Assembly (NCBI RefSeq): GCF_000214705.1 | Contig: NC_015573.1 | Coordinates: 2,735,001 to 2,799,000 of the forward strand | DNA from: Desulfofundulus kuznetsovii DSM 6115 | GTDB taxonomy: Bacteria > Bacillota > Desulfotomaculia > Desulfotomaculales > Desulfovirgulaceae | DNA: 64,000 bases | Direction of reading: 5' to 3' | Shown here: positions 44,402-47,939 of the stretch, piece by piece | How positions within the stretch are numbered: position 1 is the first letter of the stretch | Layout: every line of letters begins with the position of its first letter | The notes under the pieces: generated by a model | Seen by the model: only the letters and a program-made list of their open reading frames with translations | Told to the model about the DNA's origin: nothing | The model's database searches: none | Translations under genes and position numbers: made by a program

Positions 44402-44482
44402 TTGTAATCATTCCCCCGTAAGACAATTAATTAAAACTTTTTATGGGAGCCATGTTTTTCCCGGATTTGTTCGGTTTTTTAG

Positions 44483-45337
44483 TTAAGTAAGGCCCTCCTT
44501 TAATGCCTTCACATACCTTGCCAGTTCTTCCTTCCGCCCCTCACTAAGGAGGGCCGCGATGATCTGGACGTGGTTGATAAAGTCGTGGCGCTGGCCTCTA
44601 AGGATATCAATTTCCCGGCGCATCTCTTCGGCCAGTTTCTCCTGGGCGGACGCAACAGCCTCCCGCTCGGCAAAGCGAAGGATGCGCCAAATATAAAAAA
44701 AGGAGAGCAGCGTTGAAACAAGCAGGGTGAATACGGTAACGGCTTCCTGTACCAGCGTAGAAGGGCGTGGCTGTGCAAATACGATTAATTCAGATAAGGT
44801 AAATGAAAGCAAAGTAACCTGGATGAGAAGAGGCAAGACCATTTGAAAGGGCATTTTAACCTGCTCACTAACGCGAAAAATAGTCCAGTGTCGCCTGTGG
44901 CCAAAGTAAGCAAGAATGACAAAAGGAATGTTATAAAAAGGAAATACCAGGCGAATCAGGGGAGAAGCGTAGTAAACATTCATCGGAATTCTGAGAACAA
45001 AGACCAGAACGATGGAAAAGGTAACTTCACCCATCAAGAATATAAAATATAAGGTAAAACTAATAAAGAAAGTCCTTGCGATACTGAAGCCAAAGTAAAA
45101 TTTTAAAAAAGCTAAAAATGTAATTACCAGCAAGATAATTCGCAATAATTGAGGGAAATAATAAAAAAGTTCAAATGCAATTCCTAAAACAAGAGTGGCA
45201 ATAACAAATTTCTGCCAGTTTTCCTTAATATCGTATCCATTAAGGATTAAACTCAAAGCCAGTGCAACTCCAACAACGATCAGCCCGTGATAGAGGTGGA
45301 GAATAAGATGGATAAACAGCGAGTTAAGTCCACTCAT
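44483..45337 (-). CDS. Membrane protein with orphan HDFxNH acceptor helix (copy B)
   Basis: 284 residues: about seven transmembrane helices (residues 10-220), a linker, and a single signalling helix EEMRREIDILRGQRHDFINH ending soon after at ARYVKALKEGLT. The RHDFINHVQII motif (His251) is the acceptor motif of AgrC/CitA/SpoOB-type kinases, but there is no ATPase domain; the protein stops about 33 residues later. Its last 54 residues match those of the upstream paralogue at 45447 almost exactly, while the membrane halves differ. It is the last gene of the LytTR set. The likely role is sensor and phospho-acceptor served in trans by the ATPase protein at 46321. Confidence 0.85.
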   Translation of the reverse strand: MSGLNSLFIHLILHLYHGLIVVGVALALSLILNGYDIKENWQKFVIATLVLGIAFELFYYFPQLLRIILLVITFLAFLKFYFGFSIARTFFISFTLYFIFLMGEVTFSIVLVFVLRIPMNVYYASPLIRLVFPFYNIPFVILAYFGHRRHWTIFRVSEQVKMPFQMVLPLLIQVTLLSFTLSELIVFAQPRPSTLVQEAVTVFTLLVSTLLSFFYIWRILRFAEREAVASAQEKLAEEMRREIDILRGQRHDFINHVQIIAALLSEGRKEELARYVKALKEGLT

Positions 45338-45411
45338 GGCTGGAAAATCACCGCCCGCCGGCTGAAGAATCCCCGGCTTTCAGCCTAAACCCGAGAGAAT
45401 GGATACCCGGG

Positions 45412-45616
45412 ACCATGTTTCCCTGGATTTGTTCGGTCTTTTAAAGTTAAGTAAGGAGGCCCTCCTTTAATGCCTTCACATACCTTGCCAGTTCTTCCTT
45501 CCGCCCCTCACTAAGGAGGGCCGTGATGATCTGGACGTGGTTGATGAAGTCGTGGCGCTGGCCTCTAAGGACACCAATTTCCCGCCGCATCTCCTCGGCC
45601 AGTTTCTCCTGGGCGG
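45412..45616 (-). repeat. Near-identical 3' segment shared by the two acceptor genes
   Basis: Bases 45458-45615 match 44491-44648 with about six differences by eye, and the homology runs on into the untranslated flanks (ATTTGTTCGGT near 45427 and 44465). The upstream two-thirds of the genes are far less alike. This points to a duplicated or gene-converted 3' cassette. Confidence 0.75.
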
Positions 45617-46316
45617 TTAATGCAGCTTCATGGGCAGCCGTCTTCAATGTCTGCCAGATAAAAACAAAGGACATGAGAGTAGAAACGAGCAGGAACAGGG
45701 AAATGATAGTTTCCTCCAACATCGGGGACTGCCCGGTGAATGAAAACAACAGCTCAACCATGATAATGGTCAGTAAAGTTGTCTGAATGACAAACGGCAG
45801 GGCGTAACCGGGCGGGATTTTAATCTCTTCACTCTTTGAAAAAAGATGCCATCGGCGTTTACAGGCCAGGTATGCCAGAAAAATAATGGGTACGTTGTAA
45901 GAAAGGGGGAAAAGCCAGTTTATCAAAGGATGTTCGTAGTAGAGATCCATGGTAACTCCAAAACCCAGGGTCAGGATGACGGAAAACATCAGCTTGCCTG
46001 TGATAAAGATGAAATAAAGGCTGAAAAAAGCAATGACCGTTCTTCCCGGGGATAAACGGAAATAAAATCTAAGCACTAGATAATACATTATGACCAGGGA
46101 AATGATCCTTAATGACTGCGGGAAGTAGAAAAACAAAGTGCTTGCCGGACCTGCAACCAGTGTAATTAAAAGGAATTTCCGCCAGTGATCCTTTAAATTG
46201 TACCCGTTCAGAATGAGGGCCAGGGCAAGGGCGGCAGCAGCGCTTGTTGTCTCATGATAAAGTCCCCGCAGCAGGTATGGTATCATGGAACTGAGATTTT
46301 CCATGAACTGAATCAT
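45447..46316 (-). CDS. Membrane protein with orphan HDFxNH acceptor helix (copy A)
   Basis: 289 residues, the same plan as 44483-45337: six or seven transmembrane helices, then EEMRREIGVLRGQRHDFINH (His255) and a short tail ARYVKALKEGLLT, with no catalytic domain. The membrane half shares only a loose pattern with copy B, so the two may sense different ligands. The start lies 4 bases after the stop of the ATPase-bearing protein, so translation is coupled. The truncation point is identical in both copies, which argues for a working design rather than decay. Confidence 0.85.
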   Translation of the reverse strand: MIQFMENLSSMIPYLLRGLYHETTSAAAALALALILNGYNLKDHWRKFLLITLVAGPASTLFFYFPQSLRIISLVIMYYLVLRFYFRLSPGRTVIAFFSLYFIFITGKLMFSVILTLGFGVTMDLYYEHPLINWLFPLSYNVPIIFLAYLACKRRWHLFSKSEEIKIPPGYALPFVIQTTLLTIIMVELLFSFTGQSPMLEETIISLFLLVSTLMSFVFIWQTLKTAAHEAALTAQEKLAEEMRREIGVLRGQRHDFINHVQIITALLSEGRKEELARYVKALKEGLLT

Positions 46317-46320
46317 GTTT

Positions 46321-47163
46321 CTACGCCCCCGGCAAAATCACCACAAACCGCGTTCCGTTCGTTTCGTCCGTGAAGACCCGCACCGTGCCCATCAGTTTTT
46401 CGGCCAGGGTTTTGACTATGTGCAGGCCCAGGCCGCTGTGCCCTTCTCTCTTGGTGGTGTAACCGGGCTCGAAAATTTTTTCCAGCGTCCCCGGGTCGAT
46501 AGCCGGCCCCCGGTTGCTTACCTCCACTTCCAAAAGTGGCCCAGACCGGTGTATTTTCACCGAAACAATTCTTTCGGACTCCTCCAGAGGAAGGACCGCG
46601 TCAAAGGCGTTATCCACCAGGTTGCCGATGATCCGGGCCAGATCCACGGCCCTTGCATCCAGGCCGGCCAGGGAGGCGGAAATGTCGATATCCAGCCTGA
46701 TGCGCTTCACATCCGCCTCGGAGACCTTTGCCTTCAACAGGGCGCCTATGATGGCGTTGTCCACCTTGAGGACGTTGTTTAAAAAGGTTATTTTAGCACA
46801 AATATTTTCGAGGTAGCTTGACAGGTCTTCCCACCGTTCTTGATGGATTAAGCTGGAAATTTCCTCGATGTAAAGATTAAAATCCTGGTTTTGGACCTTG
46901 ATGGAGCCGGCGAGGCTGACGAAGCTTTGGGACATGGCTTCCCGAGCGGAAAGGAGGGCCTCTTTTTCGTAAACCTTGACCATCCTGGCGACGATGAAAA
47001 CGTTGAGGACTATGCTGCCGGCAAAGGAGCCAAGAATGAGCAGGTGTTTCGATGTTTGAGCGGGTTGGACCGGATGCTGGAGAAGGTACTGCGCCAATAC
47101 GAAAACCAGTAGGACCAATTGGAAAAAAGCCAGGAGAACGACGGAGTATTTGCTCTTCTTCAT
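46321..47163 (-). CDS. GHKL ATPase protein of a split sensor kinase, acceptor His replaced
   Basis: 280 residues. Two helices (VVLLAFFQLVLLVFVLAQYLL; LLILGSFAGSIVLNVFIVA) with almost no outer loop, then a dimerisation-type helix and HATPase_c with N box (IIGNLVDNAFDAV), G1-like SNRGPAIDPGT and G2 (GHSGLGLHIVKTLAEKL). Where AgrC/CitA kinases have RHDFxNH, this reads NQDFNLY: the His is Gln93 and the trailing His is Tyr. It should bind ATP yet cannot phosphorylate itself in the normal way. ATG 47163 overlaps the stop of the LytTR regulator (ATGA). Its substrates may be the His residues of the two membrane proteins that follow. Confidence 0.88.
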   Translation of the reverse strand: MKKSKYSVVLLAFFQLVLLVFVLAQYLLQHPVQPAQTSKHLLILGSFAGSIVLNVFIVARMVKVYEKEALLSAREAMSQSFVSLAGSIKVQNQDFNLYIEEISSLIHQERWEDLSSYLENICAKITFLNNVLKVDNAIIGALLKAKVSEADVKRIRLDIDISASLAGLDARAVDLARIIGNLVDNAFDAVLPLEESERIVSVKIHRSGPLLEVEVSNRGPAIDPGTLEKIFEPGYTTKREGHSGLGLHIVKTLAEKLMGTVRVFTDETNGTRFVVILPGA

Positions 47164-47939
47164 TTCTGAATCATGAGGCAAAAGGCCTCAAACTTCTCCC
47201 GGCGCATGGTTACCCTGGCGGGGTAGTTACGGAAAGTCACTTCATAGGCACGGTCCGCATAGGGTAAAACCTTTTCCACGCGGTTGATGTTGATGATGAA
47301 ACTTTTGTGGCAGCGAAAGAACCGGGCGGGGTCAAGCCTTCGCTCGAGTAGGGAAAGCTGCTCTGATGTTTCGTAGAGTCCGGAGTCCGTGTGGATGACG
47401 CACTTTTTGCCCACTTTTTCTACGAAAAAAATGCTGTCCGTGTTTATGATGATAATCCCGTGTCCTCTTTTAATGGTGAGTTTTGTGTGGTTGTCCGGCG
47501 TGGTTTTTGAGCTGCCGCCCGGCCCGGGGTACGGCCGGTGTTCTTTACCCCCGGCGGTTCGCATCTCTTTGAAGCGCTTTAATTTGTCCAGTGTTCGCCC
47601 TATTCGTTCCCGGTTAAGGGGCTTGATCAGGTAATCCACGGCGTCCAGGTTAAATGCTTCGGCGGCATACTGGGGGTAGGCGGTGATGAAAACGATAAAG
47701 ATGCCGGGGTGCTGCCTTTGTAGCTGGTGAACAGCCGAAAGGCCGTCCAGCCCGGGCATCTGGATGTCGAGAAAAACGGCGTCCGGCCCGGTATCCTTTA
47801 CCAGTTTCAGGAGATTCCTGCCATTGCTGGCTTTGCCGGTGACAACGACACCCTCGAATGTGCCCAGTATATCGCTTAACAGATTGCAGATGGGCTCGTC
47901 ATCATCGGCAATTACTATCTTTAATACTGAGCCCGTCAT
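47160..47939 (-). CDS. LytTR-family response regulator
   Basis: 259 residues. The receiver domain (1-125) has IVIADDDEP, Asp58 in AVFLDIQMPGLDG, the Thr in FITAYPQYA, and DYLIKPLN. After a Gly/Pro-rich linker comes the LytTR DNA-binding domain (about 150-255: SIFFVEKVGKKCVIHTDSGL, FFRCHKSFIININRVEKV, VTMRREKFEAF). Such regulators pair with AgrC/LytS-type membrane kinases and often control peptides, autolysis or surface traits. It leads the four-gene set; the 150-base AT-rich gap upstream (47940-48089) would hold its promoter and perhaps its own sites. Its targets are not evident here. Confidence 0.93.
   Translation of the reverse strand: MTGSVLKIVIADDDEPICNLLSDILGTFEGVVVTGKASNGRNLLKLVKDTGPDAVFLDIQMPGLDGLSAVHQLQRQHPGIFIVFITAYPQYAAEAFNLDAVDYLIKPLNRERIGRTLDKLKRFKEMRTAGGKEHRPYPGPGGSSKTTPDNHTKLTIKRGHGIIIINTDSIFFVEKVGKKCVIHTDSGLYETSEQLSLLERRLDPARFFRCHKSFIININRVEKVLPYADRAYEVTFRNYPARVTMRREKFEAFCLMIQK

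Follow-up and report, generated by a model that had tools for sequence, protein, structure and literature searches.

The 64,000-nucleotide stretch of Desulfofundulus kuznetsovii DSM 6115 analysed here (contig NC_015573.1, positions 2,735,001 to 2,799,000; hereafter the window) carries a cluster of four genes that probably encodes an AgrC-like membrane sensor kinase divided over separate proteins. Judging from the sequences, the ATPase subunit P0003, which lacks the phospho-accepting histidine (His), would phosphorylate the His of a sensor subunit, P0001 or P0002, in trans, and the sensor would pass the phosphate to Asp58 of the response regulator P0004. This reading is supported by the residues at the sites concerned and their conservation, the co-occurrence of the two parts across genomes, the single clade formed by the split-type ATPases, and relatives in which both parts lie in one chain. 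Desulfofundulus is a thermophilic, sulfate-reducing genus, and the host genome is closed (3,601,386 bases). The quorum-sensing kinases of the AgrC/HPK10 type possess a polytopic membrane sensor, an RHDFxNH hairpin and a GHKL ATPase, and are associated with a LytTR regulator; AgrC itself is a single chain and binds a cyclic peptide that AgrB and AgrD produce.

Gene cluster and protein domains

All four genes lie on the minus strand, in the order P0004, P0003, P0002, P0001:

47160..47939, minus strand: P0004, response regulator with receiver domain (Asp58) and LytTR DNA-binding domain, first gene of the cluster (Pfam Response_reg 1.2e-23, LytTR 9.1e-20)
46321..47163, minus strand: P0003, His-less ATPase subunit with two membrane helices, a DHp hairpin in which QNQDF replaces QRHDF, and an intact GHKL ATPase (HATPase_c 4.6e-20)
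46885..46887, minus strand: codon 93 (Gln) of P0003, at the phospho-His column (sequence and alignment)
45447..46316, minus strand: P0002, sensor subunit with RHDFINH (His255), ending 34 residues past the His, no ATPase
44483..45337, minus strand: P0001, sensor subunit with RHDFINH (His251), ending 33 residues past the His, no ATPase

The genes for P0004 and P0003 overlap by ATGA (47160-47163) and 4 bases separate those for P0003 and P0002. The original prediction, made from this DNA alone, described all four genes as tightly coupled, which holds for these two junctions but not for the sensor genes, which lie 109 bases apart (45338-45446). P0003 could alternatively start at a TTG six codons 5' of its ATG. 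With its receiver Asp and LytTR domain, P0004 is a LytTR response regulator; an alignment of four upstream regions showed conserved AT-rich blocks, and no LytTR binding site 5' of P0004 could be named from it.

The site in P0003 reads V-Q-N-Q93-D-F-N-L-Y. HATPase_c and HATPase_c_5 are the only Pfam families over their cut-offs, and SPOB_a gives no match at E<=1. The HATPase_c match and the sequence itself confirm the earlier description of complete GHKL motifs with Gln93 in place of the His. A monomer model of P0003 (m463aa4946d7b; predicted local distance difference test, pLDDT, 76) has two N-terminal helices, the second running on into the DHp helix, followed by a second DHp helix and an alpha/beta domain, and resembles many histidine kinases in a fold search. 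In addition, the profile of the P0003 family (A3) matches the AgrC kinase module 6e52 (E 1.3e-9, profile positions 87-261). The ATPase is under purifying selection, with a ratio of nonsynonymous to synonymous divergence (dN/dS) of about 0.15-0.21 against three congeners.

The intact RHDFINH motifs of P0001 and P0002, the early ends of the two chains and the absence of an ATPase domain were likewise borne out, SPOB_a being the only Pfam family over cut-offs (E 1e-8 and 2.1e-8, each covering 41/62 positions). The monomer model of P0002 (pLDDT 73.5) shows about seven membrane helices, of which the last extends to become the His helix, and ends in a short helix; hydropathy indicates several membrane helices in P0001. 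No PDB fold matches the P0002 model at E<=0.001, and no PDB sequence matches the sensor profile at E<=1.

Conservation of the complementary losses

The ATPase profile was searched in 113 genomes of the host's order (G and L numbers below are our handles for genomes and loci). Nine matches reached at least 426 bits and the next only 182 bits. Outside the order, 398 genomes of the phylum hold at least two further split-type ATPases (373 and 370 bits); up to six candidates per genome were scored in these phylum searches, and their counts are lower bounds. None of the 11 complete split-type ATPases has His in the phospho-His column (Q 4, R 4, E 2, T 1), all 11 have Asn instead of Arg at the preceding position (H-1), and none has Asn at H+4, the phosphatase-type position. 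Their GHKL boxes (N, F/G1, G2) are conserved with those of His-bearing one-chain relatives.

The sensors show the converse. Arg, His, Asp and the H+4 Asn are kept in all 16 sensor rows (12 full-length and 4 broken or cut, the window included), and the phosphatase-type motif H-D-x-x-N is accordingly found in 16/16 sensor rows and 0/11 split-type ATPases. Sensor chains end 29-42 residues past the His, full-length sensors of distant genomes included. Kept out of the 16 rows were a fragment in G065, orphan His tails in G064 and G078, the broken gene of G398, and pieces that cover the body only (one on contig 12 of G006, and the second frames in G099 and in the broken gene of G006). Homologues with a His in the ATPase protein, or with an ATPase on the membrane protein, to which the original prediction had looked for contrary evidence, were found only among outgroup relatives, and none occurs among the 11 ATPases and 16 sensor rows.

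In related kinases the His is kept in 35 of 36 rows obtained by protein and profile searches, the exception being G409 (see below). These rows represent best-scoring loci only; three (L053, L054, L064) were found via the His-bearing sensor profile, and L053 and L109, like L054 and L111, are one gene each. The kinase alignment comprised 55 rows, of which 51 were kept, 25 from a pattern scan and 26 from the searches; the remaining 10 of the 36 rows are L136-L145. Four rows (L036_1, L087_240, L092_3679, L097_385) were dropped, having no motif context and being judged by eye to fall outside the class. The pattern scan, run on genome contigs with the sensor alignment, found 33 loci: 7 (L067-L073) are of the split type (L072 a tail only), L089 is another orphan tail, 24 have His and ATPase in one chain (complete, or split ahead of the last two membrane helices); the contig of L087 stops before any ATPase could appear. 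Because the scan relied on RHDF it is blind to His-less relatives, and the 36 search-derived rows were used instead. Neither chance nor a sequencing artefact explains the pattern, given its recurrence across the 11 complete ATPases and the 16 sensor rows and the purifying selection on the ATPase.

Co-occurrence and gene neighbourhood

Within the order, a sensor or sensor piece is present in 10/113 genomes and a split-type ATPase in 10/113, if an ATPase end of 54 residues at the edge of a G078 contig is included. Both parts are found together in 9/113 (Fisher p 1.7e-11, with relatedness ignored and broken sensors counted). In the sensor-only genome, G100, the sensor is broken. Two of the six genomes of the host's own genus (G061 and G063) have neither part. 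Outside the order, the genes for ATPase, regulator and sensor are clustered in G140 and G329; all that G398 has is a broken sensor. Gene order varies, from sensor-ATPase-sensor-regulator in G005 to a divergent sensor in G004 and ATPase-regulator-sensor in G140 and G329, but gene content stays constant.

Two sensors occur in this genome, G062 and G005, and these three fit the proposal that two sensors feed one regulator. However, six genomes (G065, G064, G078, G004, G140 and G329) show a single full-length sensor gene in the stretch read, so that two inputs are not essential to the system.

One-chain relatives and probable origin of the division

The one-chain kinases L136 and L083 (448 and 444 residues) unite the two parts. 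The front of L136 matches the sensor profile (residues 8-293, 91 bits) and its back the ATPase profile (311-446, 134 bits); for L083 the corresponding matches span residues 33-287 (60 bits) and 304-442 (122 bits). Both genes directly adjoin a regulator homologous to P0004 (206 and 200 bits). Since these relatives match both profiles beside a homologous regulator, the sensors and P0003 appear to be duplicates of a single kinase after complementary loss, one copy seemingly having lost the ATPase and the other the sensor body and the His. The outgroup relatives look like the ancestral state.

Split-type ATPases form one clade (support 100/99). In a second tree one clade (99/98) holds the ATPases and sensors along with L136, L083/L137, L139 and the two G409 proteins. 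Support for the sensors as sister group of the ATPases is weak there (80/46), and the sensor rows cover only 41-44% of the columns of this tree. Rows for the trees were chosen by the RH motif, except for the split-type ATPases and G409, and the sampling thus represents His-bearing kinases and these two groups.

Other loci, the host's own agr-like locus among them, show a different type of split, which falls ahead of the last two membrane helices and keeps His and ATPase together. In the host's agr-like locus (L036 and L003, C1 at about 2,560,000) a 200-residue membrane protein without His is followed by a 279-residue kinase with RHDFISH and then, as judged by eye, an AgrB-like protein.

A second complementary pair

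The closed genome G409 encodes tandem one-chain paralogues 53 bases apart (L165 6025-7341 and 7395-8702). The upstream paralogue combines SQRHDF with a broken N-box (GILLNDVMDK) and lacks a G2 box; the downstream one reads NQKYDF, with Tyr for His, and its N and G2 boxes are both intact. The tree joins the two paralogues to each other first (99/97) and places them with L136, apart from the sensor clade and the ATPase clade, and for this reason their division probably arose independently of that in the host's system.

A further tandem of one-chain kinases was seen in Paenibacillus athensensis (L084 4933-6675 and 6834-8588), where the second kinase combines an intact RHDFINH with a degenerate N-box and no G2 box, as a dead-ATPase partner beside a complete kinase.

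Proposed mechanism and alternative explanations

According to the mechanism proposed here, P0001 and P0002, which carry the phospho-accepting His together with the phosphatase-type Asn (RHDFIN), would sense the signal; P0003 has the cluster's sole ATPase. The most likely arrangement is a mixed dimer, probably with a mixed four-helix bundle, in which its own membrane helices and His-less DHp hairpin bring P0003 together with the DHp hairpin of either sensor. P0003 would then phosphorylate His251 or His255 in trans, and the sensor would serve as phosphodonor, possibly also as phosphatase, to Asp58 of the LytTR regulator P0004. We infer complex formation, the mixed bundle, the direction in which phosphate is transferred, the action of the free sensor as a phosphatase and the integration of two inputs. 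Phosphorylation in trans had been put forward in the original prediction; the complementary losses, the co-occurrence, the one-chain relatives and the G409 pair together make it the best-supported reading, and it is offered as a probable mechanism.

Several observations weigh against it. G008 has the ATPase without a sensor, on a 3.6-kb contig, and this ATPase has NLINN where P0003 has NLVDN; no regulator is seen in G099, whose contig is short. In G398 the broken sensor, which was not counted, has RHDFITH. The structural models are of monomers only and of moderate confidence, and the sensor hairpin is shortened in its second helix, which bears on the formation of a four-helix bundle. Same-class His-bearing kinases of the host genome could in principle serve the sensors. 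Finally, the G409-type pair is known from one genome only, being absent at E<=1e-25 from four other genomes of its family, and no P0004-like regulator was found in the surrounding 14 kb.

The most serious alternative, which we nevertheless regard as unlikely, is that the sensors act as Spo0B-like phosphotransferases, or that another kinase of the cell uses them as substrates, and that P0003 merely modulates them, e.g. by competing for dimer formation. Their SPOB_a hairpin without an ATPase would suit such a role, and the host genome holds other His-bearing members of the class (an agr-type kinase of 279 residues and a kinase in a 553-residue frame) as well as a Spo0B-like protein of 193 residues. 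Against this, the sensors co-occur with P0003 and the regulator, the one-chain relatives unite sensor, His and ATPase, and the GHKL boxes of the split-type ATPases are conserved; moreover, G004 and G005 contain no second kinase of the class at E<=1e-25 (these genomes being 72% and 81% complete). It is more improbable still that P0003 is a dead kinase homologue with a non-catalytic, anti-kinase or regulator-binding function: its family has lost the His and the site drifts (Q, T, E, R), but it agrees with His-bearing relatives in its N, F/G1 and G2 boxes, and without P0003 the cluster would have no source of ATP-derived phosphate. Finally, broken sensors or pieces (G006, G100, G398), orphan tails (G064, G078) and a fragment (G065) might suggest that the sensor genes are decaying fragments of one-chain kinases in a system on its way out, a view made hardly credible by the full-length sensors with similar stops in distant genomes, the retention of RHD and the H+4 Asn throughout the sensor rows and a sensor body dN/dS of about 0.23 (P0001 against its G062 orthologue; dN 0.034, dS 0.147).

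Comparison with known systems

The system shares with AgrC homologous DHp and GHKL domains (A3 profile against 6e52) and differs in having sensor/His and ATPase on separate chains. Unlike at agr loci, no agrB-like gene was noticed beside the cluster by eye in the first ~110 residues of the larger surrounding open reading frames, an inspection that involved no family scan of neighbours and no search for small peptide genes; the AgrB-like protein of this genome lies at a separate locus (by eye). Spo0B is a soluble protein that takes phosphate from Spo0F and has a SPOB_a His hairpin, a degenerate C-domain and no working ATPase. The sensors resemble it in their SPOB_a His hairpin without a working ATPase, but they lack a C-domain and contain several membrane helices. 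Elsewhere the host genome encodes a protein with a stronger SPOB_a match (74 bits), a candidate Spo0B.

A split kinase is established in the CheA family. In Rhodobacter sphaeroides, His and ATPase are on two proteins that have to act together, CheA3 and CheA4; the His protein, CheA3, becomes phosphorylated only when the two are mixed and is also the phosphatase (PMC3591291). A further CheA-type example is the split cheA homologue Hik36/Hik43 of Synechocystis (PMC7656254). In the consulted parts of PMC3591291, the natural split kinases mentioned are of the CheA type, and an artificial split of EnvZ is cited there too. As in CheA3/CheA4, His and ATPase are on separate proteins in the present system, here as known from sequence. 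Unlike CheA3/CheA4, it is of the AgrC/SPOB_a type with the His in an integral membrane sensor, P0003 keeps its own His-less DHp hairpin and membrane helices, and the sensors appear exchangeable against one ATPase. The CheA domain order (P1, P3, P4, P5) is not found, the only Pfam families over cut-offs being SPOB_a in the sensors and HATPase_c/HATPase_c_5 in P0003. The system would work in the manner of these split kinases; it does not belong to the CheA family.

Among the proteins listed in SMART, 711 (1.7%) have HisKA without HATPase and have been predicted to be possible split kinases with two functions (PMC3591291). The figure refers to HisKA domains and, in the consulted parts of the source, names no partner ATPase, whereas here partner and regulator are identified by conserved neighbourhood. 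No report of an AgrC-type split kinase was found in the literature searched. If true, a membrane AgrC-like kinase split by complementary loss would show how duplicated sensor kinases can turn into obligate partners. It would also provide a natural test of trans phosphorylation in the AgrC-like class, and a modular system in which sensors can be swapped while kinase and regulator stay fixed. According to a published model, a split kinase whose His protein doubles as the phosphatase can give an ultrasensitive or bistable output (PMC3591291), a prediction that would bear on the present system too.

Exchange of sensors

The bodies of P0001 and P0002 are about 45% identical and saturated at synonymous sites (proportion of synonymous differences, pS, 0.78), whereas over the final 63 aligned residues identity rises to 84% and dS is 0.25. 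Similarity of the DNA runs on beyond the stop codon into the 3' flank, and the 5' parts are unlike. The near-constant tracts are approximate, their ends having been judged by eye:

45412..45616, minus strand: near-constant DNA tract of P0002, His tail and 3' flank
44450..44649, minus strand: near-constant DNA tract of P0001, His tail and 3' flank

These shared 3' ends are candidates for a recombination or gene-conversion tract.

At the ATPase-adjacent slot, the sensor body of this genome is only 30% identical to that of G062 and G065, and the tails differ by dS 0.28. Between G062 and G065 the shared body has dS 0.012, against 0.099 for the tail, 0.21 for the ATPase and 0.22 for a flanking gene. 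This mismatch in divergence between body, tail and ATPase shows that sensor bodies were recently exchanged at the ATPase-adjacent slot, with a tail that is common or homogenised. Orphan His tails persist in G064 and G078. The one in G064, of P0002 type (L030 6240-6464), lies beside a homologue of the window's Xaa-Pro peptidase gene and is preceded by an apparent regulator-gene start (by eye); it is perhaps the scar of a cluster deletion at the same place as in the window.

A broader picture, which we put forward tentatively and as one possibility among others, is that of plug-in sensing. A fixed core of regulator and ATPase would take exchangeable membrane sensors, each made of a body and a near-constant His tail some 60 residues long; bodies would be swapped at the same chromosomal slot through recombination within the tail and through interspecies transfer. 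The split of the kinase would make the sensors replaceable, and the division would have arisen at least twice in the AgrC-like subfamily.

Neighbouring genes

Proteins with Ig-like, fn3, Cu_amine_oxidN1 or Big domains are encoded near several of the loci and near one-chain relatives. Surface proteins were considered as targets of the system and no claim is made, as such domains may simply be common in these genomes. The large Ig-like/fn3/Cu_amine_oxidN1 proteins are the following:

L156, 2-4585
L158, 7872-12001
L083, 3-2825
L032, 106-2454
L023, 1412-2848

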